54,028 nucleotides of DNA from a virus, in IMG/VR virus record IMGVR_UViG_3300021137_000021, positions 1 to 54,028 of that record, one strand, 5' to 3'. The position numbers and the translations under genes are program-made. Below the pieces are notes generated by a model. That model worked only from the letters and a program-made list of their open reading frames with translations, made no database searches and was not told where the DNA came from. Positions 4,988-51,361 of this stretch are shown here, in pieces; position 1 is the stretch's first letter; each line of letters starts with the position of its first letter.

Positions 4988-5686
4988 TTAGTTAGCTGAT
5001 GCAATCTCACGAGCGATCTCAGCCAATTCAGCCTTAGTGGACGTGTGGAGAGCTTCAGGTCCAAGAGGTTTCATTGTCTTAATCAACTCAGCACAAGCGA
5101 CTGGGTCTAGTTGCCATTCCTCAGCAAGGTCACGTTCCTTCACAGGAACAACCGAATAAGTAGTCTTCTGACCTGTGCCAGACTTGCTTACAGCCCAGTA
5201 AAGATCTGGACGGTTAAGTGGGCCTGTCTTAGGATTAGAAGCAAGCTTCTCAAGTTGACCACAAAGACGAACACCAATGGTCATAAGTTGGACCTGTGGA
5301 TCTTCATCTGAGAGGTTGAGAACAGTGAATGCAAACTTTTGATCTGGCTTACTGCCAACTGCAATTAGTGGATCATCTTCACCGATGCTGATAAATGACT
5401 TCTTACCAGGACGGTTGATCCAGTGCTGCATGAAGACCATAGGTTCGTCTGAGATAAACTTAATTAGTTGTACATCTTCATCAAAACGGAAGTCTGTAGC
5501 AAATGTACGAGTAGGCTTAGCTGCCGCCTTTTTAGCTGCTTCCCAACCTGTTTGAATAACAGATGAGTGTGCAGGTACTTCGTTTTCGTCTTCTTCAATA
5601 AACAATTCAGCAACTTCTTCAGCTGTCTCGGTTGCGTATTGATCAACGTTTGGAACGTCTGACTTGATTTTAAGTGAGCTGGTCAT
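4988..5686 (-). CDS. Probable single-stranded DNA-binding protein (phage gp32/OB-fold-like)
   Basis: 232 residues. An acidic N-terminal third leads into a beta-rich core with 'FRFDEDVQLIKFISDEP', 'MQHWINRPGKKSFISIGEDD' and 'KFAFTVLNLSDEDPQVQLMT', a pattern I associate with ssDNA-binding proteins next to polymerases in actinophages. The aromatic and basic residues of the 'HWINRPGKKSF' strand would suit ssDNA stacking. Unlike T4 gp32 and many relatives it has no zinc-binding Cys cluster; the equivalent position reads 'GEDDPLIAVGSKPDQKF'. It would coat template strands for the Pol I and RecA encoded just downstream. AAAGGG stands before the ATG. The fold is inferred from pattern, not proven. Confidence 0.6.
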   Translation of the reverse strand: MTSSLKIKSDVPNVDQYATETAEEVAELFIEEDENEVPAHSSVIQTGWEAAKKAAAKPTRTFATDFRFDEDVQLIKFISDEPMVFMQHWINRPGKKSFISIGEDDPLIAVGSKPDQKFAFTVLNLSDEDPQVQLMTIGVRLCGQLEKLASNPKTGPLNRPDLYWAVSKSGTGQKTTYSVVPVKERDLAEEWQLDPVACAELIKTMKPLGPEALHTSTKAELAEIAREIASAN

Positions 5687-5717
5687 GTTGACCCTTTCGG
5701 TAGTTGGTTGATATCTG

Positions 5718-5729
5718 GGACTATAGTCC
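5718..5729. promoter_or_regulatory. 12-bp perfect palindrome upstream of the SSB-like gene
   Basis: GGACTATAGTCC is self-complementary and lies in the 56-base gap between the MerR-like gene and the SSB-like gene. A dimeric regulator could bind it, and a MerR-like and a ribbon-helix-helix regulator are both encoded within about 1.2 kb. The link to either protein is speculation. Confidence 0.3.
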
Positions 5730-5742
5730 GTACGATAGGTTG

Positions 5743-6210
5743 TTAGTTTGTTTCTTGATCATGAATCTTCTTCCAGGTTTCTGCTAACTCAATAGACAGA
5801 TCTGGGTGACGATTCCAATCAACTCTCGGAGACCCAATGAGACCCCGATCTTGGAAGCTTTTAATAGTTGCCTCAATCATTACTTTGGAATACATACGCC
5901 AACCTGGCTTCTTTACTCCATCAACGATCATAGACTTAAGACGATAGGGTGCACGTGGAATGTATCCTTTGCGTTCCCAAAGTCTTACTGTAACTACTGG
6001 CCTTCCCAGTGCTTGGCACAATGACCCTACACTGTAAAGTTCTACCGACTTTCCATTCGGTAATGTTTTTACCTGTGGATTTGCATCCCAGGAATCTAGT
6101 ATTGCCGGCTTCTTTGCTGCCACACCTGGCTCTAAAGGACGGCGTTTCCTTTTAGACCCTGGATAAAACTCTTCTAAGTCCTCAAAGAACTTATCAACAT
6201 TGTCTTCCAT
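5743..6210 (-). CDS. MerR-like helix-turn-helix protein
   Basis: 155 residues. After a charged 55-residue N-terminus the segment 'LYSVGSLCQALGRPVVTVRL' (59-78), followed by 'WERKGYIPRAPYR' (78-90) and 'RMYSKVMIEATIKSF', matches a MerR-type winged helix: the helix-turn-helix, the R-x-W-E-x-x-G wing and the R-x-Y segment. No effector-binding domain follows, so it resembles the short MerR or excisionase-like proteins of phages. It could regulate transcription or act as a DNA-bending accessory factor in replication. It sits between an unknown gene and the SSB-like gene. No recombinase is present in the window to pair with an excisionase role, so a regulatory role is favoured. Confidence 0.65.
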   Translation of the reverse strand: MEDNVDKFFEDLEEFYPGSKRKRRPLEPGVAAKKPAILDSWDANPQVKTLPNGKSVELYSVGSLCQALGRPVVTVRLWERKGYIPRAPYRLKSMIVDGVKKPGWRMYSKVMIEATIKSFQDRGLIGSPRVDWNRHPDLSIELAETWKKIHDQETN

Positions 6211-35355: not shown

Positions 35356-36375
35356 CTAGTTGTTCTGGGACTGGTAGTTATCTAGAGTACTACCTTGGTT
35401 GTACTGAGAAGGTGAAAGAAGTATACCAAACTGTGTGGCAGTCTGGGTACTGGAGGCTGTATAGGTAATTGGGCTTCCTATAGGGGTTGTAAGGGAGTCA
35501 GAGTACGGGGTGACCGTAATTGTATTCCCGCCCGATGTAACGACCTTTAAGCTGGCAGCAACGGCTGATATGGCGGTACGTAGTACCGTTGTTACGGCAT
35601 TTGCTACAGACTGATAAACATAGACAAAGGCTGGGTAGCTGACGCTACCTCCCTGGCATGTTGAACAGCCACAGGTATGGGTATATGAGGAAGTACACTG
35701 CGTGTAATAGTAATAGTACGCACAGGAATAAGAGCATGGGGTGTAGGTAGAGCATACCCCATAATGGTTGTAGCAATATGCGACGTAGTATAGGTAAGAA
35801 CCTCCGCCGTATGTAGCGTAATAGTTACATATGGTACCTGTAATACATACGTAATATGAGGTTCCTCCACCCGTACATCCACAGCCAGCACCTACAGGTC
35901 CAACTGTCTGAGATGAAGCACAGGCGCTACATGTTTGACATCCACAGGTGTAGTAGTAGACCGTGTTAACTACCTCTTGGCCAGCTGCTACGCCAAACCA
36001 GTTACCGCTATCGGTAATCCACTGAGCAGCTCCAGTGCCGTTAGTTGTGGCACCAACAGTCTGGATATTGCTAGCGCTACCAGTATCAATAGCGGCAATA
36101 GAGTAGTTAGAGGCAGAGTCATTGGATTGAGCCTGGGATCCATTGGCAAACCAAGTACCTCGGGTAGCACTCCAAGCTTGCCCGCTATCGGCTGTGCCTA
36201 GATTGCCTGAGGTTGTACGGTTAAAGGAGTCAATGACAGAGGCCTTAAACCATTGCTTCCATTGACCGCCAACTTTAATAAAGGCTGAAGTAGCCCCATG
36301 CCATGCTCCGCTTACCTTTACAAGGATACCAATGCTTGTACCCTGTCCGCCATTTACATTAACTTTACCTGGCAT
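35356..36375 (-). CDS. LamG-like adhesin interrupted by a Cys/Tyr-rich insertion
   Basis: 339 residues from the ATG at 36375 (overlapping the TAA of the upstream fibre gene); an upstream in-frame start would overlap that gene by 150 bases. Residues about 45-130 ('VIDSFNRTTSGNLGTADSGQ' then 'AWSATRGTWFANGSQAQSND') begin a concanavalin/LamG-like fold. The last 75 residues ('VTTVLRTAISAVAASLKVVT', 'FGILLSPSQYN') finish it. Between them lies about 115 residues with 16 Cys and many Tyr and Gly, including 'YYYTCGCQTCSACASSQ' and 'HTCGCSTCQGG'. The insertion would be an exposed, disulfide- or metal-stabilised loop on the tail. Confidence 0.6.
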   Translation of the reverse strand: MPGKVNVNGGQGTSIGILVKVSGAWHGATSAFIKVGGQWKQWFKASVIDSFNRTTSGNLGTADSGQAWSATRGTWFANGSQAQSNDSASNYSIAAIDTGSASNIQTVGATTNGTGAAQWITDSGNWFGVAAGQEVVNTVYYYTCGCQTCSACASSQTVGPVGAGCGCTGGGTSYYVCITGTICNYYATYGGGSYLYYVAYCYNHYGVCSTYTPCSYSCAYYYYYTQCTSSYTHTCGCSTCQGGSVSYPAFVYVYQSVANAVTTVLRTAISAVAASLKVVTSGGNTITVTPYSDSLTTPIGSPITYTASSTQTATQFGILLSPSQYNQGSTLDNYQSQNN

Positions 36376-37307
36376 TACTGATACACAATCCAGATGTCTC
36401 CATCGTTGCCCTGGCCTGTTGTTGGTGCTGTTGTAGAGACCCATGTATTGCGGACAACGCCTAGAGAAGTTGAGGCGGCTGTTACTGAAGCATTTGCTGT
36501 TGCAAGATAAACTGTTGGGGTCTGCCATGAAAGGGCAGAACCATTGCTGCTAAGAACTGTACCAGCTCCACCAATACCCAAGCGACCTACAGCTGAGGCG
36601 CCCGTTCCCACCACAAGATCACCAGCAGCACTAACTGTGCTTAGTGGAATCTTTGTAGTATCTGTTGGGGTACCCCAAGCAACTGAGGTGCCGTTCATAA
36701 TAAGAGACTGACCGGCAGCCCCTTTAGCAAGGTTAGTTACGGTGGCATTACCTGAACCAATAAGAAGATCTCCCGCAGCTGTTACAGTTGAAAGAGGGAT
36801 CTTGGTATTGGCGTTATTATTGGCGGCAGTCGTAGCAGCCGTAAGGGTATTGTAGTCAGTGCTATTAACATAGAGAACGTTACTAGAACCCACAGCTGGA
36901 ATACCAGAGGAGTTAACATTGAATCCCAATACAGAGCCAGAGGTGTAGGTCTCAATAAGGTTAGCTGTTCCTGAGCCTACCTTTAATACAAGGCCTTTTG
37001 TAGAGCTAGTGGTAATAGTGCTTCCACCGGTAATGCTGACATATGGACTATTAGCCACACCATTTACCAAGCCATACTCAATGTTATTGAGGCGATCGCC
37101 CAAGGTAGACCAACCGGTAGTCTTAGCAAAAGTTCCTGAGTAGGTAGAAATCAGGGGGCTTTGATTGGTCAGGGCAGAACCAAGGGTTGTCTCAATAGCA
37201 GTAATCTCAACCTGTAGTGAGTTTACGTTATCAGCCAAAACGGTGCTGACAAGGTCAACCTCTGGTTGGTAGGTTTTAACCTGATTTGGATATGAAGCTG
37301 TTGCCAT
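36375..37307 (-). CDS. Tail fibre-like protein
   Basis: 310 residues. It starts 'MATASYPNQVKTYQPEVDLV' and a helical section 'LADNVNSLQVEITAIETTLG', typical of fibre bases that attach to the baseplate. It continues with 'GDRLNNIEYGL' and repeats of the type 'IPLSTVTAAGDLLIGSGNAT' and 'IPLSTVSAAGDLVVGTGASA', which are also present in the neighbouring fibres ('TAKGD', 'GTGAS'). The C-terminal ending 'TAPTTGQGNDGDIWIVYQ' is common in phage fibres. AAGGAG lies five bases upstream. It is distinct from the five-copy family because it lacks its 'SAEL' terminus. Confidence 0.65.
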   Translation of the reverse strand: MATASYPNQVKTYQPEVDLVSTVLADNVNSLQVEITAIETTLGSALTNQSPLISTYSGTFAKTTGWSTLGDRLNNIEYGLVNGVANSPYVSITGGSTITTSSTKGLVLKVGSGTANLIETYTSGSVLGFNVNSSGIPAVGSSNVLYVNSTDYNTLTAATTAANNNANTKIPLSTVTAAGDLLIGSGNATVTNLAKGAAGQSLIMNGTSVAWGTPTDTTKIPLSTVSAAGDLVVGTGASAVGRLGIGGAGTVLSSNGSALSWQTPTVYLATANASVTAASTSLGVVRNTWVSTTAPTTGQGNDGDIWIVYQ

Positions 37308-37501: not shown

Positions 37502-38707
37502 TTACAACTCCGCACTAAATGCTAGGTATCCGCCAGCAACATTGTTATTTAGCAATGTATAAGGGCGATACTGGGTCAAACCGCTGGCAACTGGTGCGTA
37601 TAATCTTGCACCGTCTATACCGCTTCCACCGCCAGGAATGGTCGGAGCAGCGTTGAGTGCAGTAAGCGTTACACCATCCCATAAAGCAAGATATGAAACT
37701 GTTGTTGGTGATTCAACCGCTGTTGGGCCTACACGCATTGGAACTGGGAAGAATATAGTTACTTCTGCCTGAGTTGTTGAATAAGCACTTCCTTGAGCCA
37801 AAGGTGGGTATAGGCCATTCAAAGAAGTTCCATTGCGCTTGTAGTAGTACCTCTGACAGGCATTTAACTCCCCCTGAAGTGTTCCGCCAGCGCGGGAGAA
37901 GGCAGTTGCTACTGAGCCTAATTCCAACTGAACCTGAGCAACCGTCAATGTTGCACTAGCCGACATTGCAGCCGTTGTTGTGAAATAAACACGAACTGTT
38001 TTGGCATTTGAAGGAATAGTTGTTGTCGCGGTTTTTTTCACAAGCGAGGATGTTGTTGATACTGTTTGTGTAAGCCCACTATAAGTTCCAGCATTCCAAG
38101 CAGCATCAACTGTTGTTGAATATTCAATGTGAATATCTACGCTTTGAGCAGCCGATGTAGCCAAATATGCGGAAACTGTAACTGTTTGACCAGCCAAGTA
38201 AATTGAGTTGAGCGTTTCAATTGCTTGTAAGATGATTGGGTTTCCGCTTGTTGCGCAAGTATAAGTTATTGAGTTTTGCGCGTTGCTAGGAACAAGGGAA
38301 GTATTTTGAGAAAATGTGCCGCCGCCAGAAAATGTGGCTACAACCCATCGGTCAGCCAAATAAACTCCAAGGCTTGAGGTAGAAGTTCCTCGTTGCCAAA
38401 TGTCAAAGTTTCCGTTGATGAGCCAGTTCTTGCCACCAGCCAAAGAAGGCCCTGCCCAAGCAACGCCTGTGCTGGCAGAAGAGTTTGCAACGAGTGTTGT
38501 GCCGTCAGCGCCTACGTTTAAAGTGCCTACGGTGCTAGCACCAGTGCCTAGAGCTAGATCGCCTTTGGCGGTATAGGTAGTTACTGTTGCAGCGTTAGCT
38601 ACATCGGCTACTGAGTGGGTATGTGGGCCTACGCCAACAGGTACCCATTGGTTATTGACCCCATCCCAAACGTAAGCGGGACGACTGGTATTACTAAAAT
38701 TTGCCAT
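37502..38707 (-). CDS. Tail fibre protein, family copy 5
   Basis: 401 residues. N-terminus 'MANFSNTSRPAYVWDGVNNQ' then 'GPHTHSVADV' with 'TYTAKGDLALGTGASTVGTL' and 'NVGADGTTLVANSSASTGVA', shared with other copies. The central part begins 'LINGNFDIWQRGTSTSSLGV' and ends 'QLELGSVATAFSRAGGTLQG' with 'ELNACQRYYYKR', a CBM-like receptor-binding domain common in phage fibres. The C-terminus ends 'GGYLAFSAEL'. Its partner gene follows directly. The D-I-W-Q-R-G-T and S-x-A-E-L motifs define the family. Confidence 0.75.
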   Translation of the reverse strand: MANFSNTSRPAYVWDGVNNQWVPVGVGPHTHSVADVANAATVTTYTAKGDLALGTGASTVGTLNVGADGTTLVANSSASTGVAWAGPSLAGGKNWLINGNFDIWQRGTSTSSLGVYLADRWVVATFSGGGTFSQNTSLVPSNAQNSITYTCATSGNPIILQAIETLNSIYLAGQTVTVSAYLATSAAQSVDIHIEYSTTVDAAWNAGTYSGLTQTVSTTSSLVKKTATTTIPSNAKTVRVYFTTTAAMSASATLTVAQVQLELGSVATAFSRAGGTLQGELNACQRYYYKRNGTSLNGLYPPLAQGSAYSTTQAEVTIFFPVPMRVGPTAVESPTTVSYLALWDGVTLTALNAAPTIPGGGSGIDGARLYAPVASGLTQYRPYTLLNNNVAGGYLAFSAEL

Positions 38708-38880
38708 TATTCACCTGCCTGTGGTGTAGAAGAGTTGGCTGCAAGTGTGGCTAGATAAGCTTGATACATAGAATTAGAAGGGTCGGTGGGAATTTGCCAA
38801 CCATCTGAGCGAATGATTAACGATGTTGATGGCTGACCTGTCATTGGGTCAGTTGGGATTGTGTATGTGTATTCGTTCAT
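38707..38880 (-). CDS. Small fibre-partner protein, copy 4 (57 aa)
   Basis: ATG at 38880 overlaps the TAA of fibre copy 4, and TAA at 38707 overlaps the ATG of copy 5 (TAATG both sides). 'MNEYTYTIPTDPMTGQPSTS' then 'LIIRSDGWQIPTDPSNSMYQ' and 'AYLATLAANSSTPQAGE'. The W-x-I-P-x-D-P-x-N-x-x-Y-Q-x-Y-L core is widespread in short phage tail-region proteins. Part of its DNA is nearly identical to the copy at 41923-42093. Confidence 0.65.
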   Translation of the reverse strand: MNEYTYTIPTDPMTGQPSTSLIIRSDGWQIPTDPSNSMYQAYLATLAANSSTPQAGE

Positions 38881-39959
38881 TATAACTCCGCACTAAACTC
38901 TAAGTATGCTGATGTTGAGTTTTCGGTTCGCAGATAGCAACCATAAGCAACTGTTGCTCCCGATACTCCCGCAATTAAACCTGCTGAATCAGCAGTTGTT
39001 CCATCACCTTGTAAAATTGGAGCAGAAGTACCGATTGCAGAATCTCCTTGGCGAACTGTAAATGAACCAGAAGCGTTGTAAGCAGGTACGCCTCTCATCG
39101 TTGTTCTCAAGGGAAACACAAATTGACTTTGAGTTGTATTCAAATTTTGCCCAATAGCAATACGCCAGTATGCAGCCGCACTTCCAGCGGTAAAGCGTTG
39201 ATAGTACCTCTGGCAGAGGCTTAACTCTCCTTGGAGTGTGCCTGATGCTGTGGTGAAAGGTGTGGCTACCGAACCTGCTTCTAACTGCACGCCCCAAAAA
39301 TCTACATTTACGCCAGTTGTAGGCGTGTACAAGAGTAAACCTATTGAACTTCCTGCGCCAATAGTTTTTCCAACTACAGATGGCAAAGTTGTTGTATAAG
39401 TAATTCTTTGCCAAGAAGTTGTCAGGTTGTAATTTATATTTGTTGCCAAGACATTTGCGGACCCGCCTGAACCAAAGTATTGGTAAATCTGTGCTTGCGC
39501 TCCTGAAACTGCACTTGCGGCTTTAGCCCAAAATGAATAAGTAACCGTTTGCCCCGAAAATGTGCGCACATCCTCAACTGGTTGTTCAAAATATGTAGCA
39601 GATGTTGTGGCATTTACTCTTGCAAAATATGGAGCGGAGTATCCTGTGATTGGTGCTTGAGCGGCAGAGGGGGATGATGAGTAATCAAAGGCAATTTGTG
39701 TAACAGTCGTTGATGCTGAACCATAGTTATACACACGCCAGCGGTCTAATGTGTAATTCAAGCCCGTTCCACTTGGATTGACTGTTCCCCCACGTTGCGC
39801 CAAAGCAAAATCGCCATTGATGATCTTATTCTTGCCAGCAGCATACTGAGCGGGGTTCTCAAAAGCATAACCGTTACTTTGGTTGGTATCAACAGTAAGT
39901 ACTTGACCATTAGTACCTGAAGTACCTAAGATATTTGAGTTGTCTCTAGCTCTAGTCAT
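38880..39959 (-). CDS. Tail fibre protein, family copy 4
   Basis: 359 residues. The N-terminus 'MTRARDNSNILGTSGTNGQV' is short and differs from the other copies; then 'IINGDFALAQRGGTVNPSGT', 'QTVTYSFWAKAASAVSGAQA' and 'VQLEAGSVATPFTTASGTLQ' with 'GELSLCQRYYQRF', ending 'TSAYLEFSAEL'. The W-A-x-x-x-x-x-S strand and L-E-A-G-S-V-A-T-P-F end are those of CBM-like fibre domains. The variable tip between 'CQRYYQ' and 'SAEL' is where receptor specificity would be expected. Confidence 0.75.
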   Translation of the reverse strand: MTRARDNSNILGTSGTNGQVLTVDTNQSNGYAFENPAQYAAGKNKIINGDFALAQRGGTVNPSGTGLNYTLDRWRVYNYGSASTTVTQIAFDYSSSPSAAQAPITGYSAPYFARVNATTSATYFEQPVEDVRTFSGQTVTYSFWAKAASAVSGAQAQIYQYFGSGGSANVLATNINYNLTTSWQRITYTTTLPSVVGKTIGAGSSIGLLLYTPTTGVNVDFWGVQLEAGSVATPFTTASGTLQGELSLCQRYYQRFTAGSAAAYWRIAIGQNLNTTQSQFVFPLRTTMRGVPAYNASGSFTVRQGDSAIGTSAPILQGDGTTADSAGLIAGVSGATVAYGCYLRTENSTSAYLEFSAEL

Positions 39960-40139
39960 TTATGCACCTGCCTGTGGTGTAGAAGAGTTGGATACGAGTG
40001 TGTCTTTATTGAGGTATGCCTGATAATCGGCATTTGATGGGTCGGTTGGTATCCAAGCACCATCTGAGCGAACAATAACTTCCGTAGAAGGCTGACCAGT
40101 AAAAGGGTCAGTTGGGATTGTGTATGTGTAAGTTTCCAT
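39960..40139 (-). CDS. Small fibre-partner protein, copy 3 (59 aa)
   Basis: ATG at 40139 overlaps the TAA of fibre copy 3 (TAATG), and its TAA abuts the ATG of copy 4. 'METYTYTIPTDPFTGQPSTE' then 'VIVRSDGAWIPTDPSNADYQ' and 'AYLNKDTLVSNSSTPQAGA'. It aligns along its whole length with the copies at 38707 and 41923, so partner genes duplicated together with the fibre genes. Confidence 0.65.
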   Translation of the reverse strand: METYTYTIPTDPFTGQPSTEVIVRSDGAWIPTDPSNADYQAYLNKDTLVSNSSTPQAGA

Positions 40140-41866
40140 TACAACTCCGCACTTGCAACAAAGGATGCTTGAATGTTATATCCTGGGGTAGACCAGTTGC
40201 CAGAAGCATTGTAAAAATTATAACTTCCCGTACTAATGATAGAAGCACCAAAGGTTCCATTGCTTCCTGACGATGCAGTAAATGAACCGTTAGTAAATGT
40301 TGGCGCAGTTCGCATTGTTACAGGAAAATAAAACGCTCCGCCAGTAATACCAGCAGTGATTGTGTTTCCTGCCATCTGGTTTGTTGCTACATAGCAATAC
40401 CTCTGACAAGCGGCTAACTCTCCTTGGAGTGTGCCACCTGCTCGGCTGAATGGGGTGGCTACTGAGCCAGCCTCAAGTTGCAATCCCCAAAGTTGAATTG
40501 TTACCGCAGCCGATGTTCCGCAGTATCCATAAATTTGAACTTTGCTGCTAGGGCCGAGTGTCTTACCTGAAATAGATGGCATCGCTCCTGTGTAGGTAAA
40601 ACGCTGCCAAGTGGTAGTCAAGTTAAATGCTGGTTGTGGGCCAGCAACTTGAGTTGAGCCACCTGTTCCAAAGTTTTGATTGAAACCAAAGCCGTAACCA
40701 ATAGTTCCAGAAGTTACTCTTCCCCAGAATGAGAAAGTAAAAGTTTGTCCAGCGAGTGTACGCACATCTTCTATGGAGTGTGCCATATCGGTATATGAAC
40801 CGCCTGAGCTTTTGGCAATCTGCAAATAGTAAGCAGGTTCATATCCAGAAATCGGATTGCCAGGAGTAAATGCTTGCTGGCTTATCGTCATTGTTGAATC
40901 AGTACCGTTGAAGAATCTATCTGCTACCGCACCATAAGTTCCTGTGTAGGTAGTTCCACGCTGCCAAATATCCATACCACCGTTGATGACAAAGTTCTTT
41001 CCAGCCGCTACTGAAGGCCCTGCCCAAGATAAACCTGTGCTGGCAGAAGAGTTTGCCACGAGTGTTGAACCGTCAGCTCCGACATTGAGTGCTGTTTCAC
41101 TTCCGGATCCGGTTCCAACCAGGATGTCGCCCTTGGCTGTGAACTGAGAAAGCGGGATATATCTAGCATCAGATTGGGATTGGGTATATGTATTAGTAAC
41201 GCCCATAGTGATGGTGTTAAATACTTCTACGGTATCTCCAGTTACTGTGGCTTGAGTTAATGTGATTGAGGTACCGTTAGTGGCGGTGTAGTCAACACCC
41301 TTAACAATCAAGATACCATTGACATAGACTTCTTCATAACCCGCTGTATAGGCAAGAGTAGTTGTGCCATCATCTGCTAGGCCTGAGAGAACGGTAGTTC
41401 CTCCTGTAGGAGTTTTCTTCCAGCGTACTAGCTGTAGACCTTGAGTGTTTCCCGCCGTATTAACCCAGACCATACCAGGGGTATAGGTTGTTGGTTCTGT
41501 AGTCTGAGCAATGTTATTGCTAGACATCTGAACAGCTGGATAAGAGACCACTGTGAGGATATCTGAAACGGCAAGTGGGTTAGCTAAAACAATGGTAGAG
41601 CCGGTAGTGGCTGTATAGTCAGATCCACGTACTAGTAGAACACCATTGAGGTAGACATTCTCCCCGCCTAGTGGATAGGTAAGGGTAGTTCCATTATCGG
41701 AAGCTCCAGAGAGGGTAGTCTCCCCACCTGTCCCTGTGTGGGTCCAGTAGAGTTCATAGGCTCCGCCCAATACTAAGTTCCAAGTAGTACCGTCATAGGT
41801 CCATTGCCTACCGCCCTGGTAGATGGACGTGCCAGCTACTGGGGACGAGGGGAACGAAATGGCCAC
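40139..41866 (-). CDS. Tail fibre protein, family copy 3 (longest)
   Basis: 575 residues starting at a GTG with GAAGGAG upstream. The N-terminal half has two repeats of a fibre-shaft domain ('GGETTLSGASDNGTTLTYPL', 'ENVYLNGVLLVRGSDYTATT' and 'TVLSGLADDGTTTLAYTAGY', 'EEVYVNGILIVKGVDYTATN'). It is followed by 'TAKGDILVGTGSGSETALNV', the CBM-like 'VINGGMDIWQRGTTYTGTYG', 'LQLEAGSVATPFSRAGGTLQ', and an ending '...SFVASAEL'. One fewer or one more shaft repeat makes the difference in length between family members, which would place tips at different distances from the baseplate. Confidence 0.75.
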   Translation of the reverse strand: MAISFPSSPVAGTSIYQGGRQWTYDGTTWNLVLGGAYELYWTHTGTGGETTLSGASDNGTTLTYPLGGENVYLNGVLLVRGSDYTATTGSTIVLANPLAVSDILTVVSYPAVQMSSNNIAQTTEPTTYTPGMVWVNTAGNTQGLQLVRWKKTPTGGTTVLSGLADDGTTTLAYTAGYEEVYVNGILIVKGVDYTATNGTSITLTQATVTGDTVEVFNTITMGVTNTYTQSQSDARYIPLSQFTAKGDILVGTGSGSETALNVGADGSTLVANSSASTGLSWAGPSVAAGKNFVINGGMDIWQRGTTYTGTYGAVADRFFNGTDSTMTISQQAFTPGNPISGYEPAYYLQIAKSSGGSYTDMAHSIEDVRTLAGQTFTFSFWGRVTSGTIGYGFGFNQNFGTGGSTQVAGPQPAFNLTTTWQRFTYTGAMPSISGKTLGPSSKVQIYGYCGTSAAVTIQLWGLQLEAGSVATPFSRAGGTLQGELAACQRYCYVATNQMAGNTITAGITGGAFYFPVTMRTAPTFTNGSFTASSGSNGTFGASIISTGSYNFYNASGNWSTPGYNIQASFVASAEL

Positions 41867-42440
41867 GGTTTACTCCTTCGGGAACTGCCTAATAATATCA
41901 GAAAGTAGGTGTATTACAGGTCTTAAGCTTGTGGCTGTGGGGCTGAGTTGGCTGCAAGTGTGGCTAGATAGGCTTGGTAGTCTGAGTTGGCAGGGTCGGA
42001 AGGAATGAACCAGCCATCTGAGCGCTGGATTACTGTGGTTGAAGGCTGACCTGTCATTGGGTTAGTTGGGATTGTGTAGGTATATTCGTTCATTATAACT
42101 CCGCACTAGCCGTTACATTGCTTCCAAAGTAAGCGCCATTAGTGCTGCTATTAGCAGTTCGCGCTTCATAAAATCCAGTTGGTGTTAAATCTGAAGCAGT
42201 ACCAGAGGATGCAGGAAAACCATTGTTATTAGTGCTTGTAAAAGTAACTGCTGGAGTGCCTCTCATTGTTACTGGCAATCTGCACCAAGCATAATAAGTT
42301 ACACCTGAAGTAACATTTCCCGAGAAAAAGATATTGTCATAAGCAGAATATCCATTTGCTCCGCTGAACCAGTAATACCGCTGGCACAAGGCTAACTCTC
42401 CTTGGAGTGTGCCACCTGCTCGGCTGAATGGGGTGGCTAC
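40412..42440. repeat. 51-bp identical repeat in fibre copies 3 and 2
   Basis: The stretch 40412-40462 is identical to 42390-42440. It codes for the conserved 'ATPFSRAGGTLQGELA' segment of both fibres. The three other fibre copies keep diverged forms near 37845-37918, 39205-39277 and 43557-43630. Identity at the DNA level, including third positions, suggests recent duplication or gene conversion. Confidence 0.85.
41923..42093 (-). CDS. Small fibre-partner protein, copy 2 (56 aa)
   Basis: ATG at 42093 overlaps the TAA of fibre copy 2 (TAATG), TAA at 41923. 'MNEYTYTIPTNPMTGQPSTT' then 'VIQRSDGWFIPSDPANSDYQ' and 'AYLATLAANSAPQPQA'. The DNA at its start, with the end of its fibre gene, is nearly identical to the 38831-38896 junction. 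It is followed by a 56-base gap before copy 3, one of few spaces in the cassette. Confidence 0.65.
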   Translation of the reverse strand: MNEYTYTIPTNPMTGQPSTTVIQRSDGWFIPSDPANSDYQAYLATLAANSAPQPQA

Positions 42441-43055
42441 CTTGCCCTGCTCTAGTTGTATTCCCGTAATTCGGACTGTAACGCCTGAGCCTTGAGCAGT
42501 GTCAGGAATAAAACCTACGCGCAATCCAACTGCATCTGATGGAACTGTAAATGTTCCTGTAAATCTTGTCCATCCAGAAGCGTTTGAGGCATTGCCAAAA
42601 GCGTTAATTGCCACATTGGTTGTTTGTGAGCCTAAAGCATCTGTGCTGTTTGAGTAATCAATGTAAGAATAAAGAATGCCAGCATATCCACCTGTTAATT
42701 TTACATAAGCAGATATAGTAAATGTTTGCCCACGCATAGGCTTTACAACTGCTTGCTCTAATGCTTGATAATACTGAGCAAACGCAGAAGCGCCACTTGT
42801 CACATATTTCAGCGCATACTGCACACCAATCGCAGATGGCAAATCAGAAGTTTCTTGAGAAATTGTTGTTGTTCCAATAAGATTTGCATACCATCTATCA
42901 GCCGTTGAATATGTCGCTTGAACAGTTGATGTTGTTGTGGCTCTCTGCCAAATGTCAAACCCACCGTTAGCCACATAATTTTTGCCAGCCACAAACGGAG
43001 CTACTGCCCCACCTGTGTTCTGCTCAACCGTTGAGGTTAATTGCGCTCTGCTCAT
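42093..43055 (-). CDS. Tail fibre protein, family copy 2
   Basis: 320 residues, the shortest copy. After 'MSRAQLTSTVEQNTGGAVAP' it goes straight into 'VANGGFDIWQRATTTSTVQA', 'QTFTISAYVKLTGGYAGILY', 'IQLEQGKVATPFSRAGGTLQ', 'GELALCQRYYWFSG', then ends 'GAYFGSNVTASAEL'. It has no shaft repeats, so its tip would sit close to its attachment point. A 51-base stretch near 42390-42440 is identical to one in copy 3. Confidence 0.75.
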   Translation of the reverse strand: MSRAQLTSTVEQNTGGAVAPFVAGKNYVANGGFDIWQRATTTSTVQATYSTADRWYANLIGTTTISQETSDLPSAIGVQYALKYVTSGASAFAQYYQALEQAVVKPMRGQTFTISAYVKLTGGYAGILYSYIDYSNSTDALGSQTTNVAINAFGNASNASGWTRFTGTFTVPSDAVGLRVGFIPDTAQGSGVTVRITGIQLEQGKVATPFSRAGGTLQGELALCQRYYWFSGANGYSAYDNIFFSGNVTSGVTYYAWCRLPVTMRGTPAVTFTSTNNNGFPASSGTASDLTPTGFYEARTANSSTNGAYFGSNVTASAEL

Positions 43056-43222
43056 TATTCACCTGCCTGTGGGATAGAAGATTGGAGTGTGCTTGCAGCT
43101 TGCATAGCATCGTAAATGCTTTTTGGCATTGAAGTAAATGTGCCGTCAGCCCGATTGATAAATGCGTATGAAACGGTTGTTCCGTCTGGTTGAGGAATAT
43201 CTTGATAAGTAATTGTGTCCAC
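43055..43222 (-). CDS. Small fibre-partner protein, copy 1 (55 aa)
   Basis: A GTG at 43222 shares one base with the TAG of fibre copy 1 (TAGTG) and the TAA overlaps the ATG of copy 2 (TAATG). 'DTITYQDIPQPDGTTVSYAF' then 'INRADGTFTSMPKSIYDAMQ' and 'AASTLQSSIPQAGE'. It differs from copies 2-4 in the centre and is closest to copy 5, so there are two subtypes of partner. Confidence 0.6.
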   Translation of the reverse strand: MDTITYQDIPQPDGTTVSYAFINRADGTFTSMPKSIYDAMQAASTLQSSIPQAGE

Positions 43223-44592
43223 TATAACTCCGCACTAAATCCTAGGTAAGCGCCAGAACTTGTATTTGTTATGTTGCCAATCTGACCTTGGCTCCAAGCG
43301 GAATCTGAACCGCCCTTTCCATATGTAACTCCTACGGCATTTGAATTGCCATAATATGAAGCACTCCAAGTTCCAGACGAATAAGAATTTACACCATAAG
43401 TTTGAACTTGCAAGCCTGAACTACCGCCATCAAGAACTAATGCAGTAGTCCTCATTGGTACTGGCGTTGGGATAGTAAAGAACCAGTTTGTTGTGCTAAC
43501 TGCGGGGGCAAATGCAAGAATAGAACCAGAAGAACCAGCAGCCGTATAACGGGTGTAATACCTCTGGCAAGCGGCTAACTCCCCCTGAAGTGTGCCACCA
43601 GCGCGGGAGAAGGTTGTAGCGGCTGCGCCTAGTTCAAGTTGCGCCCTTGACCAAGTGATGTAATCGCCATTGTTCATACCGTTTGCATAAAGAGCAATAC
43701 GCAAAGTTTTGGCAGTTGATGGGATTGAAAAAGTATAAACAATTTGCTGGAAAGAACCTGATGTAGTTACGGATTTGATTGCCGTTCCTGTCAAGGTTGT
43801 ATAAGTTCCAAGAAAAATATCGTCAGTATTGGTTGAATAGTCAATACCAATCGTAGGGGATTTGCCTGAAGTACCAGCAACCCAAGCAGACAAAGTAACA
43901 GTCTGACCCGCAAGCGGTAATGTGTTGAAAGTTTCAACCACTTGATACATTGTATTTCCAACTGAGTTGGCAGAAGCAGTTACGCGCAAGCCGTACTTCT
44001 GACCAGCCTGAACCAATGATGTATCTTGAGTGACTGTTCCAGCCGCATTGAAGTAGTTAGTCCAACGGTCTGCGGTGTATTGAGGTACACCTGCTGAGAT
44101 GCTGAAAGAAGTTCCTCTTTGCCAAATATCCATTACGCCATTGATGAGAGTGTTTTTGCCAGCAGCCTGATTGCCAGTCCAAGACACCCCACCACCAGCA
44201 GAAGAGTTTGCAACGAGTGTTGTGCCGTCAGCGCCTACGCCGAGGTTGGTAACGGATCCAGATCCGGTCGCAACGATTGTGTCGCCCTTAGCTGTAACAG
44301 TTGAGAGAGGAATTGCATTAGCAATAGCAAAAGTGTTTTGGGAATTGATAGTGACCAAATCACCAACTACCAGCGCATTGCTGAGTGTTACTGAGGTTCC
44401 ATTAGCGGCGGTGTAGTCTACACCACGTTCTAATAGAACCCCATTAACGAATAACTGCTCCCCACCTACAGCGTAGGAGAGGGTGACTGAAAAGCCATCC
44501 ACGCCTGAAAGCGTGGTCTCTCCACCCACGGCGGTATAGCGCCATGTACGAGGGCTATTCTGCGTGGAAGCTGTAGTGTAGGAACGAGTCAT
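43222..44592 (-). CDS. Tail fibre protein, family copy 1
   Basis: 456 residues. 'MTRSYTTASTQNSPRTWRYT' leads to a shaft repeat ('GGETTLSGVDGFSVTLSYAV', 'EQLFVNGVLLERGVDYTAAN'), then 'TAKGDTIVATGSGSVTNLGV', 'LINGVMDIWQRGTSFSISAG', 'QLELGAAATTFSRAGGTLQG', 'ELAACQRYYTRYT' and the ending 'GAYLGFSAEL'. It is preceded by the Ala-rich 80-residue gene with four bases between. First gene of the five-unit cassette in transcription order. Confidence 0.75.
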   Translation of the reverse strand: MTRSYTTASTQNSPRTWRYTAVGGETTLSGVDGFSVTLSYAVGGEQLFVNGVLLERGVDYTAANGTSVTLSNALVVGDLVTINSQNTFAIANAIPLSTVTAKGDTIVATGSGSVTNLGVGADGTTLVANSSAGGGVSWTGNQAAGKNTLINGVMDIWQRGTSFSISAGVPQYTADRWTNYFNAAGTVTQDTSLVQAGQKYGLRVTASANSVGNTMYQVVETFNTLPLAGQTVTLSAWVAGTSGKSPTIGIDYSTNTDDIFLGTYTTLTGTAIKSVTTSGSFQQIVYTFSIPSTAKTLRIALYANGMNNGDYITWSRAQLELGAAATTFSRAGGTLQGELAACQRYYTRYTAAGSSGSILAFAPAVSTTNWFFTIPTPVPMRTTALVLDGGSSGLQVQTYGVNSYSSGTWSASYYGNSNAVGVTYGKGGSDSAWSQGQIGNITNTSSGAYLGFSAEL

Positions 44593-44596
44593 TTAA

Positions 44597-44839
44597 TTAT
44601 CCCTTGAGGGCTGCGATTTCTTCTGGGGTAAGGCCAAGCTTTGCAAGCTTGTCTGCTGCTGAAGCGGCTGCTGCTGCCTTAGCCGCATCTGCCTCTGCCT
44701 GAGCTGCTTGCTGAGCTGCAAATGCTTCAGATTGAGCCTTCTGAGCTGCAATCTCATCTGCTGTCATATCACGTGTAGTAGAGATGCTGGTTGAGCAATC
44801 TACTTCCACGACTTGTGGAACTGTGGCTGTATCTGCCAT
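44597..44839 (-). CDS. Alanine-rich coiled-coil protein (80 aa)
   Basis: 80 residues with a strong AAGGAG seven bases before the ATG. A short head 'PQVVEVDCSTSISTTRDMTA' is followed by a nearly pure helix 'DEIAAQKAQSEAFAAQQAAQ' and 'AEADAAKAAAAASAADKLAK', ending 'LGLTPEEIAALKG'. The heptads of Ala suggest an oligomer. Such small proteins occur ahead of phage fibre genes. It heads the fibre cassette and may be a chaperone or linker; inferred from place and shape. Confidence 0.6.
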   Translation of the reverse strand: MADTATVPQVVEVDCSTSISTTRDMTADEIAAQKAQSEAFAAQQAAQAEADAAKAAAAASAADKLAKLGLTPEEIAALKG

Positions 44840-44893: not shown

Positions 44894-45391
44894 TTAGATT
44901 CCGTAGAGAGTGAATACAGAATATTGAGCAATATTTTGCCCCGATGTTGCCGTATCAAAACTAAGGGTTGTAATGGCAGCGGTACTAGACCAAAGTTCAG
45001 CAGAAAAAGATGGATATGCGGTGCTTGAATTGGCTTCTGCCACTACATCTATTAAAACTTGTTTGTAAGTTGAGATTGTATAATTAGGAATGTAAATACT
45101 GCAAGCGGTGAAAATATTTGCAGTATTAGTTCCATTTATTGTTGCTATGGCGCGATTGGTGCTTCGGTTTGAGCTTGTGCTTGAACCTGTTCCATTCCCA
45201 AAAGTATTAGAAATATTGGCTTGACTGCCATTAAAATACATACCTAAAGAATCATAAGTGCTATATGTGCTGGCAGCAGATATATCTATTTTTAAATCTG
45301 TGTATGTTTGAGGGATTGAAGAAAAAGTTATTGTTCCCAATCCACCTGAACCAACAACGACAGATGCAATTTTAGTTAGTGTATTAGCCAT
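44894..45391 (-). CDS. Adhesin-array protein, family copy (165 aa)
   Basis: 165 residues. 'KIASVVVGSGGLGTITFSSI' and 'PQTYTDLKIDISAASTYSTY', 'GNGTGSSTSSNRS', 'SIYIPNYTISTYKQVLIDVV', 'ISFDTATS'-type strands and the ending 'YSVFTLYGI' define the family: G-S-G-G-x-x-x-I-x-F-S-x-I-P-Q-x-Y-T-D-L, G-N-G-x, and a final [AT]-L-Y-G-[IV]. The fold looks like an all-beta jelly roll. It is the last of five tandem genes; paralogy suggests receptor binding or decoration of the tail. No known biochemical function. Confidence 0.65.
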   Translation of the reverse strand: MANTLTKIASVVVGSGGLGTITFSSIPQTYTDLKIDISAASTYSTYDSLGMYFNGSQANISNTFGNGTGSSTSSNRSTNRAIATINGTNTANIFTACSIYIPNYTISTYKQVLIDVVAEANSSTAYPSFSAELWSSTAAITTLSFDTATSGQNIAQYSVFTLYGI

Positions 45392-45392
45392 T

Positions 45393-45920
45393 TTATGCCG
45401 CCGTTATTCCGTAGAGGGTTGCTGTTGTTCCTGCAACATAAACTGTTCCATAAGATTGACCGAAAGATATTGCGTTAATGGCGGCGGTATTTCTCCATGT
45501 AGAAACTGCCATATCTACAAATCCGCCGCTACTATAATCTGCTCCGCCCCTGCCAAGCATAGTTTTATATCCGATTGTGTTAGCGTAATTTAATACAGTG
45601 AAAACTACGCTACCGAAAATATTTGCTCCGTCTGACCCTCCGGAAGTTGAACCAGCCCAACCAAAGTTTGCATTGTTTGTGCGAGATGAACCTACGCCCG
45701 AACCATTGCCAAAAATGTATGTATAAGAATAACTGCTAGTGCCATCATTGTTGAATTGCGGAATGATTTGGCTATATGGAGTGCTGTAAGAATTGCGTCC
45801 ATAAACAACACACACTAAATCAGTATATGTTTGAGGAATTGAAGAAAATGTAATAGTTGATGTGCTTGACCCGCTAACGGTATATGTCGCAATAGGTGTA
45901 TATGTTGATTGAGCAGCCAT
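45393..45920 (-). CDS. Adhesin-array protein, family copy (175 aa)
   Basis: 175 residues with GGAG seven bases before its ATG. It shows 'STSTITFSSIPQTYTDLVCV', 'VYGRNSYSTPYSQIIPQFNN', 'YIFGNGSGVGSSRTNNANFG', 'FTVLNYANTIGYKTMLGRGG' and the ending 'GTTATLYGITAA'. Compared with its neighbours, the strand edges and the closing motif are kept while the loops differ, which is what one expects if loops contact variable receptors. Confidence 0.65.
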   Translation of the reverse strand: MAAQSTYTPIATYTVSGSSTSTITFSSIPQTYTDLVCVVYGRNSYSTPYSQIIPQFNNDGTSSYSYTYIFGNGSGVGSSRTNNANFGWAGSTSGGSDGANIFGSVVFTVLNYANTIGYKTMLGRGGADYSSGGFVDMAVSTWRNTAAINAISFGQSYGTVYVAGTTATLYGITAA

Positions 45921-45929
45921 GATTTTCTC

Positions 45930-47225
45930 CTATGCAATTCCGTAAAGGGCAATTACCGAACCGGCAGCGAATCCTGTTTGAGATGTGCCGCCGAATTGAC
46001 TAATCGTAGCAATAGGATCATTTGTTAGCATTACAGTAGAAGATAAACCTACTGCGCCAATGCTGTTGGAATCGTAACCACCGAACATTCTGACAGTTTT
46101 ATTTTTATTTGGATTTGAATAATCTAAGATATCGATAACATAAGCACCGAATACATTTGATGAGAGATAAGCATTTGCAAATCCTATAGATAAATCTCCG
46201 TAGTTAATGCCGGTGTAAGATTGAGAATAACCTGTGCCATTGCCAAAAAGTGAATGCCCTGCAAATTGATATGCGGTGCTGCCGTTGAATCTAAAGAATG
46301 GATTTTCATTTACGCCACCGCTGCCGGTGTATGTACCTCGCACATAAACTCGTAATTGCAAATGAGTGTAGTTTTGGGGAATATTGGTAAATGAAATTGT
46401 GCCGCCCGATGGCGAAGTTACTGTTGCAATACTTGCATAAGAATTGGCACTTGTTACCGCGCTTGATGTAGCCGATGAAGCTGTGCCAAGAGAGTTGATT
46501 GCTTTAGCTGTGAAAGTAGTTGAGTTACCTAGAGTCAATGGAGCAACAATGGGACTGCCGCTTCCATAAGTCGTATTACTACTGTTATCTGTAACAGCGT
46601 AAGTTATTGCATTATCAGAGCTAGTAGGAGTGAAAGATACTGCCGCAAACCCTGCTTGATCTGTTACAGCTCCGATTGTAGGAGCTACCGGAGAAGTAGT
46701 TGAATATTGCGGGGCAACTCCATAAAGCGTAATAGTTGTATATTGCGCAAAAGTACCAAATGTTCCAATAGTTAATTGAGTGATAGGTGCAGTAGTGCGA
46801 ATAAGCCCTGCCCCCAATGTTTGAACAGAAAATGCTGCATTTTGTTCCGCAACGATATCACTTACTATTTGCTTGAAATTACTAGATGTGTAGTTAGCAA
46901 TTTTAATCGTAGCAATACTGAATGAATTTGCAGTTGAATTGGCTTCATTTATTTGACCAGCATAATAAAAATCACCACTACTGCTGTATGCTTGATCGGA
47001 ATAAACACCTGAGCCGTTACCATATAAACGAATGCTTGCGTAAGAGTTGAAACCGCTTAAACCGCCTACTTGCATATACATTTGATTAGTAACTGTTGAG
47101 TCCAAACCTCTGCCAGACACAACTATTTTTAAATCAGTAAATCCTTGCGGAATATTATTAAAGACGACATTACCGCCACCGCTGCCGACAGTTTGTGTGA
47201 AAATGGGTTGCATAAATACAGACAT
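45930..47225 (-). CDS. Two-domain adhesin-array protein with FN3-like linker
   Basis: 431 residues. Residues 1-170 ('GNVVFNNIPQGFTDLKIVVS' to 'QYTTITLYGV') and 262-431 ('GTISFTNIPQNYTHLQLRVY' to 'AGSVIALYGIA') are two copies of the array domain. Between them (about 178-260) 'APTIGAVTDQAGFAAVSFTP', 'NAITYAVTDNSSNTTYGS' and 'TTFTAKAINSLGTASSA' form a fibronectin-III-like linker with the P-x-I-x-x-V and A-x-N-x-x-G-x-x-S motifs. It is thus a fusion of two family members and the clearest evidence of duplication within the array. Confidence 0.7.
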   Translation of the reverse strand: MSVFMQPIFTQTVGSGGGNVVFNNIPQGFTDLKIVVSGRGLDSTVTNQMYMQVGGLSGFNSYASIRLYGNGSGVYSDQAYSSSGDFYYAGQINEANSTANSFSIATIKIANYTSSNFKQIVSDIVAEQNAAFSVQTLGAGLIRTTAPITQLTIGTFGTFAQYTTITLYGVAPQYSTTSPVAPTIGAVTDQAGFAAVSFTPTSSDNAITYAVTDNSSNTTYGSGSPIVAPLTLGNSTTFTAKAINSLGTASSATSSAVTSANSYASIATVTSPSGGTISFTNIPQNYTHLQLRVYVRGTYTGSGGVNENPFFRFNGSTAYQFAGHSLFGNGTGYSQSYTGINYGDLSIGFANAYLSSNVFGAYVIDILDYSNPNKNKTVRMFGGYDSNSIGAVGLSSTVMLTNDPIATISQFGGTSQTGFAAGSVIALYGIA

Positions 47226-47227
47226 TG

Positions 47228-47761
47228 TTATGCCCCTGTCGTATTAGAAACAGAGACCCCATAAAGGTCAATTCTAGAATATTGAACGAATGAACCGGCT
47301 GAAGGAGTAATAGTTAAACTAGTAATCGCTGCTGTACTTAACCATATTCCTGACCATAAGCCAAGCAAACCTGCACTTGTATTGAAATCTGCTCCGTTAA
47401 TTGCTTGAACAGTTTTATATTTGTGAGTGTTTGTATAATCTAAAATATCACCAACGCTTATGCCATAAGTATTTGCGGTATCCGTATTTCCGCCAACCCA
47501 GCCAAGGTCAGTAGACCCTGTAAAACTTGATGAAAATGGGCTTCCCGAATTAGTGCCATTACCGCCTATGTAATGTGTATAGTAATTTCCTACCGTGAAA
47601 TCACTATTGAAATTGAGTGGCATATTTGTTCCGGAAGAACCTGATGATCTTCCAAAAGCGCGAATATGTAAATGGGTGAATGTTTGAGGAATTGAAGAAA
47701 ATGTAATGGAAGCTGCTCCACCTGAACCGACAGTAGAACTAGCAATAGGGTACATACTCAT
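47228..47761 (-). CDS. Adhesin-array protein, family copy (177 aa)
   Basis: 177 residues. 'ASSTVGSGGAASITFSSIPQ' then 'TFTHLHIRAFGRSSGSSGTN', 'GGNGTNSGSPFSSSFTGSTD', 'GDILDYTNTHKYKTVQAING' and 'FVQYSRIDLYGVSVSNTTGA'. The same G-S-G-G..I.F.[SN].I-P-Q and Y-G-V ends as the family. It overlaps the gene upstream by four bases (ATGA), so the array is translated in a chain. Confidence 0.65.
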   Translation of the reverse strand: MSMYPIASSTVGSGGAASITFSSIPQTFTHLHIRAFGRSSGSSGTNMPLNFNSDFTVGNYYTHYIGGNGTNSGSPFSSSFTGSTDLGWVGGNTDTANTYGISVGDILDYTNTHKYKTVQAINGADFNTSAGLLGLWSGIWLSTAAITSLTITPSAGSFVQYSRIDLYGVSVSNTTGA

Positions 47762-48333
47762 TGACCTACGCTCCTAACGCCATATAGAGCCGCACTTGAA
47801 CCTGCTACAAAATTGCCATAAGTGGCTACTTGCAAAGTAGTAATTGCAGATGTTTGCGCCCAAAGACCAATAGTTAAAGCAGATACCCCTGAACCATTGA
47901 CATTTCCGGCGCTTTGGATTAAGCAACTTTTATTTGTCGTAGTGCTGGCATAATTTAATAAATGTGCTTCGCTCATGCCATATAAATTGCTAGGCGCGCC
48001 CGAACTTGGAAATACTGCAACTGTTGATTGGAAGCCGTATGTAGGGCTTGATGTTGTGAATCTATTTGATGCGTAAGAAGAACCATTGCCATACAAACCT
48101 GTTGCGCTAAAATTAGCAGTTCCTGACGCCTGTTGCGTGTATAAAGATAATCCTGAAGGCAGCACTCCACCGATATCTGATCTGCCATATACAACCAAAT
48201 ATAAATCTTGATAGATTTGCGGAATGTTATTGAAATAAATAACAGCCGTAGTGGTAGTTAAAGATTGATATCCAAGAGGAACATAAGCGCCATGAGCGCT
48301 AGCATTAAGAGAAGGAATAAGAGCAGGACTCAT
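47758..48333 (-). CDS. Adhesin-array protein, family copy (191 aa)
   Basis: 191 residues from the ATG at 48333, which overlaps the TGA of the preceding gene (ATGA); the frame opens nine codons earlier without better support. 'MSPALIPSLNASAHGAYVPL' is a short attachment leader; then 'TTAVIYFNNIPQIYQDLYLV', 'VYGRSDIGGVLPSGLSLYTQ', 'YGNGSSYASNRFTTSSPTYG', 'AHLLNYASTTTNKSCLIQSA' and 'AGSSAALYGVRSVGQ'. Most divergent family member. Confidence 0.65.
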   Translation of the reverse strand: MSPALIPSLNASAHGAYVPLGYQSLTTTTAVIYFNNIPQIYQDLYLVVYGRSDIGGVLPSGLSLYTQQASGTANFSATGLYGNGSSYASNRFTTSSPTYGFQSTVAVFPSSGAPSNLYGMSEAHLLNYASTTTNKSCLIQSAGNVNGSGVSALTIGLWAQTSAITTLQVATYGNFVAGSSAALYGVRSVGQ

Positions 48334-48815
48334 GCGGTGATATCTCCTACCAAGACCCACGTATCTGTGGCTCTCTTAATAAGAGTTGCTGCTGACCACT
48401 GGGCACGAAGCTTTAGCCCAGGGTTTGAATTTAATGTCACCCCGCTTGTTGCTGCTACAGTCACCTGACCAGTGTTTGTTTGAAGTAACTGGATTTGTGT
48501 ACCGATTGGGAAAGCCACTGTAGCGTTTACTGGGATTGTGAGAGTAATAGGTGAGGTGTTGCTAAGCTCAATGTTCTTAGAAACATCTGTCAAAACCAAG
48601 GTATACGATGTTCCTGTTTGGGCGTTTGTCACCATAGTTGGAAATGCGATTTGGTTGACGTATGCGAGAGCTGTCCAGGTAGAAGTACCGTTGCCGATCT
48701 TCATATAACCAGTATCGGTCTCAACGCCTGGCTCACCAGCTGCAAGAATTGGGTTTGTGGAAGTCCAAAGAGCCGCTGTACCACGGCGTAGTTGAATCTG
48801 TGTTTGTACAGCCAT
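48330..48815 (-). CDS. Tail tip protein with Mtd-N-like domain
   Basis: 161 residues. 'MAVQTQIQLRRGTAALWTST' then 'NPILAAGEPGVETDTGYMKI' and 'GNGTSTWTALAYVNQ' is the small beta domain of phage major tropism determinants and other fibre tips (R-R-G-T-A-A-x-W-T-x-x-N-P-x-L-x-x-G-E-x-G-x-E-x-D-T-G-x-x-K-I-G-x-G). The remaining residues form a beta-rich part with 'YTLVLTDVSKNIELSNTSPI' and 'IQLLQTNTGQVTVAATSGVT', typical of fibre ends. It starts in the stop of the 135-residue gene (TAATG). Confidence 0.75.
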   Translation of the reverse strand: MAVQTQIQLRRGTAALWTSTNPILAAGEPGVETDTGYMKIGNGTSTWTALAYVNQIAFPTMVTNAQTGTSYTLVLTDVSKNIELSNTSPITLTIPVNATVAFPIGTQIQLLQTNTGQVTVAATSGVTLNSNPGLKLRAQWSAATLIKRATDTWVLVGDITA

Positions 48816-51001: not shown

Positions 51002-51361
51002 TTAAGAAAGGTAAGCGTTTCCACTAAAAGCCGAGGTGAACGTGACAGTCAGGTTGTTCGTATCGGTGTAGTGGATCTCACCTTCTACTATGGTACCTGC
51101 TGAGTCTACAACAGTTACGTTCGGATAAAAGTTTAAATTATGCTGAATTACCCAGGTATTGTTTGGAACCATCTGGGTATAGTTAAAGGCAATAGCTGGA
51201 ATAGCTAGTGTCTGGCTAGTTAAAACAATAGGAGCCGGCTCATTGATTGTTACGGCTTCTTGGTTGCAATTCCCGCAGGTACAGGTTCCTGTGCCACTGC
51301 AAGAATAGGTTATATTAGTTGTGGCTGATGTGCCAGAAGGGGTCCAGACTGTAGGGCTCAT
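51002..51361 (-). CDS. Small virion protein with Cys-rich N-terminus (119 aa)
   Basis: 119 residues. 'TYSCSGTGTCTCGNCNQEAV' has four Cys in C-x5-C-x-C-x2-C. The C-terminal half 'NNTWVIQHNLNFYPNVTVVD', 'SAGTIVEGEIHYTDTNNLTV' and 'TFTSAFSGNAYLS' is the H-N-L-x-x-x-P-x-V-x-V-x-D-S-x-G-x-x-V-x-G-x-I-x-Y module common at phage tail ends. The same module closes the 585-residue fibre. It starts in the stop of the connector gene (ATGA). Perhaps a short fibre or baseplate decoration. Confidence 0.6.
   Translation of the reverse strand: MSPTVWTPSGTSATTNITYSCSGTGTCTCGNCNQEAVTINEPAPIVLTSQTLAIPAIAFNYTQMVPNNTWVIQHNLNFYPNVTVVDSAGTIVEGEIHYTDTNNLTVTFTSAFSGNAYLS

Follow-up and report, generated by a model that had tools for sequence, protein, structure and literature searches.

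Paralogous beta domains encoded in sets of three in a myophage, and a proposed heterotrimeric tail tip

The array and its immediate neighbours

The window analysed here, the whole 54,028-nucleotide stretch of IMG/VR record IMGVR_UViG_3300021137_000021, belongs to a myophage, with tail sheath and baseplate wedge genes present. On the minus strand, between positions 44894 and 48333, five adjacent genes (A to E) carry six homologous copies of one beta domain, about 165-190 residues long in the window copies. The copies belong to three classes (a, b and c, described below) and form two triplets, ordered b-a-c and then a-b-c, with the two-domain gene C as the joint between both sets. In the direction of transcription, the features are:

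48330-48815, minus strand: upstream neighbour, 161 aa; Mtd_N (PF18454, E 4e-16) and a C-terminal region common to tail and virion structural PHROGs (phrog_21510, phrog_8780)
47758-48333, minus strand: gene E, class b, first gene of triplet 1
47228-47761, minus strand: gene D, class a, triplet 1
45930-47225, minus strand: gene C as a whole, holding C1, linker and C2
46698-47225, minus strand: N-terminal domain C1 of gene C, class c, triplet 1
46452-46697, minus strand: FN3-like linker of gene C, tying triplet 1 (class c) to triplet 2 (class a)
45933-46451, minus strand: C-terminal domain C2 of gene C, class a, triplet 2
45393-45920, minus strand: gene B, class b, triplet 2
44894-45391, minus strand: gene A, class c, triplet 2, last gene of the array
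44597-44839, minus strand: small gene, 80 aa, directly after the array

Every pair of window copies proved homologous by BLASTP (identity 27-39%, E 1e-5 to 1e-24). When the whole 54-kb record was searched with a profile, exactly six copies came up, all in genes A-E. Both agree with the first-pass annotation of this DNA, which had described a tandem array of six copies in five genes, and had rightly seen two copies joined by a fibronectin-like linker (about 82 residues) in the 431-residue gene C. The linker had no Pfam match in the window, and its equivalent in contig L246 falls short of the Pfam cut-off in its match to PF00041 (E 0.0024). The same fusion of class c to class a through an FN3-like linker recurs in contigs L043, L004, L036, L246 and L363. 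Gene E starts with ATG at 48333, overlapping the upstream gene by 4 nt (a GTG at 48360 is also open), and has an N-terminal extension, MSPALIPSLNASAHGA, of the kind typical of a first gene.

Among the copies, invariant residues include F..IPQ, L, GNG, N, Y, K, I and LYG, and the conserved residues are mostly housed in turn motifs. The start motif proposed earlier needs correction, since its GSGG part is not conserved in every copy and the motif actually common to them is F-x-x-IPQ-x-[YF]-x-x-L. Nor do loops differ while strand edges are conserved, as had been proposed: across relatives, column entropy is equal in predicted strands and non-strands (p 0.07-0.54). We also carried out the profile search in phage databases suggested at that stage. 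At E<=1 the five window genes matched neither Pfam nor PHROG families, bar a chance-level Lep_receptor_Ig at 0.034, and hundreds of relatives were found in the viral collection. Among these, phrog_2295 matches one, the b subunit of L005, over residues 34-451, mostly in its glycine-rich part. The domain itself is without Pfam family coverage.

The C-terminal region of the upstream neighbour ends in TDTWxxxGDI. At roughly half of the loci, the gene immediately upstream of the triplet has a similar C-terminal sequence (a single similarity cluster takes in 110 of 212 upstream genes), which makes this product a candidate shaft or docking partner. A small gene similar to the one that follows the array is also found after the triplet of L330 (4932-5270).

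Copies occur in equal numbers of three classes

Relatives from the IMG/VR viral collection were merged into 282 distinct contigs; of 599 stretches found by one short motif, at least 551-576 encode relatives. A scan of genome contigs returned zero relatives. We considered arrays to have intact flanks when at least 1.3 kb was present on both sides. In all 157 such arrays a, b and c are equally numerous, with three consecutive paralogues, one per positional class, in every one, although contigs were gathered by similarity and rare incomplete arrays may be under-sampled. Array size was three copies in 133 cases, six in 21 and nine in 3. Across contigs the arrays read abc, abcabc, abcabcabc, bac, bacabc or bacbac, so that order within a set is a-b-c or b-a-c and class c is last in every case; incomplete sets were seen near contig ends only. 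Phage ct2KA10, a 39-kb record, has one a-b-c set. The nine-copy arrays, in L274, L311 and L249, give three triplets per genome.

Phylogeny supports the same classes. In a tree of 72 domains we obtained three clades of exactly 24 each, one domain per triplet, with SH values of 95-99 and regardless of gene order. For 306 domains, 8 changes suffice to explain the position label on the tree, versus 145 after shuffling. Identity is 42-43% inside a class and about 32% between classes, and between-class identity is hardly greater inside a triplet than across triplets, which indicates that the classes are unblurred by gene conversion. On sequence grounds, a, b and c are ancient paralogue classes. In the window, class c profiles give C1 147 bits versus 96 and 89, gene D scores 193 bits for a, 94 for b and 128 for c, the tree groups gene E with class b, and C2, B and A were assigned by both class profiles and tree.

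Two apparent exceptions were rejected. An a-a-c reading of 24 triplets became b-a-c, that is, a swapped order, after retraining on clean triplets and inspection of the tree. Apparent extra copies in L330, L351 and L016 do not represent broken triplets: they are single-gene homologues, weak at 53-64 bits, carried by other fibre genes.

The array had previously been read as a row of independent adhesin domains, a picture that finds no support. Because the copies instead make up two sets of three classes at strict 1:1:1, a heterotrimer is the likeliest natural unit, and the six window copies most likely represent two tips, not six adhesins.

Subunit asymmetry, coupling between classes and predicted fold

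An N-terminal extension is found on the first gene of the triplet, which belongs to class a when the order is a-b-c and to class b when it is b-a-c. The profile of one extension type matches 71 first-position a subunits, 4 first-position b, 1 second-position b and 0 c; it also picks up glycine-rich proteins that stand alone upstream in related contigs. Such stand-alone glycine-rich adhesins (L165:4815-5702, L223:4115-5080 and 5084-5986, L122:2682-3620) carry an N-terminal module, SxKTxxxxxxLxGNxxYxP-like, resembling that of first subunits. The module looks like a shared tail-docking module, suggesting that stand-alone adhesins and first subunits have a common docking site. Most first subunits have a short N-terminal peptide only; subunit a of L028 and L038 begins with a long fibre-like region that includes FN3 domains. 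The opposite end is asymmetric too, with long C-terminal additions on 25 b and 45 c subunits and on 0 a subunits. Two glycine-rich additions examined match PF21722, and 61 additions cluster with them. For c of the window and of a few relatives, this addition consists of the FN3 linker leading to the next triplet.

Residue coupling was analysed by mean-field direct coupling analysis (DCA) of 301 distinct triplets (effective number 292), with permuted and nearest-neighbour-swapped pairings as nulls. The method recovers within-domain ladders, as antiparallel sheets should give. Between classes, the top-20 z was 8.3, versus 4.4-5.7 in the nulls, and pooling over the three pseudo-equivalent class pairs gave 8.9 versus 4.4-4.7. 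Column pair (4,146) recurs in a-b, b-c and c-a (z 4.1, 14.2 and 4.4), as does (141,1) (z 5.5, 5.6 and 8.6); same-column pairs such as (1,1) and (2,2) are also prominent. Recurrence at equal columns in all three class pairs is what a pseudo-threefold ring would predict. The (4,146) residues lie about 1 kilobase apart in the DNA, and their coupling is hence unexplained by overlapping reading frames of neighbours. Pair (141,1) lies near the gene junction for a-b and b-c, and away from it for c-a, where it is strongest. Trimming the ends left the real set above all 16 null runs.

In a matched-genome test we used the 35 contigs with several triplets and couplings learned on the other contigs. Within the same genome, the partner from the same set was preferred over that from another set in 31/41 cases for a-b, 28/41 for b-c and 27/41 for a-c. 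Away from the termini the test was significant for b-c only, so the terminal strands hold most of the specificity signal. Between-class distance correlations are 0.56-0.62, and shared ancestry may contribute part of the coupling.

Structure prediction and fold search had also been proposed for the domain. AlphaFold2, run on the in-frame a-b-c chain of L324 with stops read through and a balanced 35-row alignment, yielded three well-folded beta sandwiches (pLDDT 81.6). The mutual arrangement of the domains was not confidently predicted (pTM 0.44), but this is not a strong negative, because the three domains were modelled as one monomeric chain in which about 10 residues link neighbours. Fold matches (VIA-align) are jelly-roll-type sandwiches with Z at most 7.6, in which GH32 enzyme domains, galectins and C1q heads are mixed; values below 8 may mean a mere common arrangement. 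Of the predicted viral proteins, those that match best are uncharacterised and come from phages, and a PDB sequence search with the family profile gave zero matches. The predicted fold is a jelly-roll-like sandwich. An earlier six-sequence model (pLDDT 68) was set aside, its fold matches being too weak to use.

A proposed heterotrimeric tip and its alternatives

We propose, with a probability of roughly four in five, that the array encodes two obligate 1:1:1 heterotrimeric jelly-roll attachment tips on the tail, each of one a, one b and one c. Triplet 1 would be E(b)-D(a)-C1(c) and triplet 2 C2(a)-B(b)-A(c), with the C1-FN3-C2 fusion tying both. Each would form a pseudo-threefold tip, docked to the tail by the first-encoded subunit through its N-terminal peptide or, where present, the longer fibre-like region. 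The N- and C-terminal strands would pack close to the pseudo-threefold axis, leaving the other surfaces to face the host, together with, in many relatives, C-terminal glycine-rich adhesins on b and c only.

Three other explanations deserve consideration. A heteromer of a, b and c may be real but larger, for example a3b3c3, as subunit a's long fibre-like region could be trimeric in some relatives (L028 and L038) and ordinary tail fibres are trimers. We regard this as unlikely, if the most plausible of the three, since most first subunits have the short peptide only, FN3 strings need not trimerise, and recurrent coupling of three class pairs is the prediction of a simple three-subunit ring. Alternatively, the three genes could encode separate homotrimeric adhesins, or monomeric decorations, maintained as a repertoire for different receptors. 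A repertoire is expected to vary in size and to lose members, yet a = b = c holds in every complete array; it would leave b and c without an anchor of their own, the docking module being on the first gene alone, and it sits poorly with inter-class couplings that exceed the nulls and recur at equivalent positions. Single-gene relatives on fibre-type N-terminal regions do exist and could be homotrimers, and the low pTM also speaks for separate proteins, but taken together this explanation is very improbable.

The heterotrimer could also have a structural role, capping or decorating the baseplate or capsid and making no contact with the host. The match of the upstream neighbour to PHROGs annotated as virion structural proteins fits such a role. 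Against it stand the position of the genes in the fibre region, the PF21722 glycine-rich domains on b and c, the single-gene homologues at the C-terminus of fibre-type genes, and the weak structural matches, which are jelly-roll lectin-like folds; we consider a cap improbable, somewhat less so than a repertoire. The adhesin-like character that the first-pass annotation attributed to the domain stands on indirect grounds: the myophage tail and fibre region, the fibre-type C-terminal homologues in Streptomyces phages and the PF21722 domains often carried by b and c of relatives.

Those Streptomyces phages (Intolerant gp29, Crosby gp30, Microdon gp29 and Araceli gp30, annotated as hypothetical proteins) have a single C-terminal homologue scoring about 47-91 bits against the family profile. 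The domain is homologous and its gene lies in the tail module before the endolysin, but there is one gene with one copy and its own N-terminal region, which, if trimeric, would be a homotrimer. Erythrobacter phage XM05 has a weak homologue inside a tail protein, and some fibre genes of related contigs end in a single weak homologue. The simplest history would be triplication of a homotrimeric tip gene followed by specialisation, with the heterotrimer deriving from the single-gene tip found on Streptomyces phage fibres. Since single-gene, three-, six- and nine-copy forms all exist, the family offers a clear test of the transition from homo- to hetero-oligomer. We think it probable, though less so than the reading of the window itself, that an undescribed large group of tailed phages attaches by an obligate heterotrimeric jelly-roll tip derived from a triplicated homotrimeric one, with one subunit docking, two carrying adhesins and one to three tips stacked per genome.

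The closest precedent is Dishui Lake virophage 2 (DSLV2), whose three tail proteins, encoded consecutively, bind Synechococcus and purify together as a heterotrimer; they are paralogous, of about 200-250 aa, form position-specific clades, assemble 1:1:1 after co-expression and were proposed in 2025 as a receptor-binding tip (PMC12724248). All three have the collar domain PF07484, T4 gp37 needle-like, in a virophage without a tail tube (PMC12724248). Both systems share three consecutive paralogous genes in positional classes. The principle is the same and the family different: here a jelly-roll-like sandwich is predicted, in a tailed phage, with arrays of up to nine copies and a docking module on one subunit. 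PF07484 went undetected at E<=1 in the five window genes and at E<=0.1 in the relatives tested. In the literature searched, no heterotrimeric tip of this kind turned up for tailed phages.

Outside viruses, three different paralogous jelly-roll subunits form one asymmetric recognition head in C1q. This head is among the weak fold matches (Z about 5.8-6.0) and is a possible working analogue, but sequence homology is not detectable and Z is below 8. T4-like gp38 and other PF21722 tail adhesins share the glycine-rich domain found C-terminally on many b and c subunits, and the stand-alone glycine-rich proteins of related contigs have the same N-terminal docking module; in contrast, the beta domain described here is not glycine-rich and would serve as carrier. 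Well-studied phage fibres and spikes are homotrimers, and therefore their three faces must change together. A heterotrimer would let the faces evolve separately, and a single subunit has to fit the tail. If true, the tip would mirror the C1q head in viruses and offer a natural example of broken symmetry in the evolution of fibres. The family appears abundant, has no Pfam entry and is a possible source of asymmetric binding scaffolds.

As for the wider fibre region, the earlier count of about 11 adhesin-like domains in a row is borne out by the six copies plus five paralogous CBM_4_9-like fibre genes adjoining the array (window 37502-44592, starts at 37502, 38880, 40139, 42093 and 43222). These have a common C-terminal region with GGTLQGELxxCQRYY, ending in SAEL, and the gene at 43222 matches CBM_4_9 (PF02018). 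Two further ORFs of the fibre region, at 35356-36528 and 51002-51361, have Cys/Tyr-rich stretches (YYYYTCGCQTCSACASS... and CSGTGTCTCGNC), unusual in a phage tail protein.
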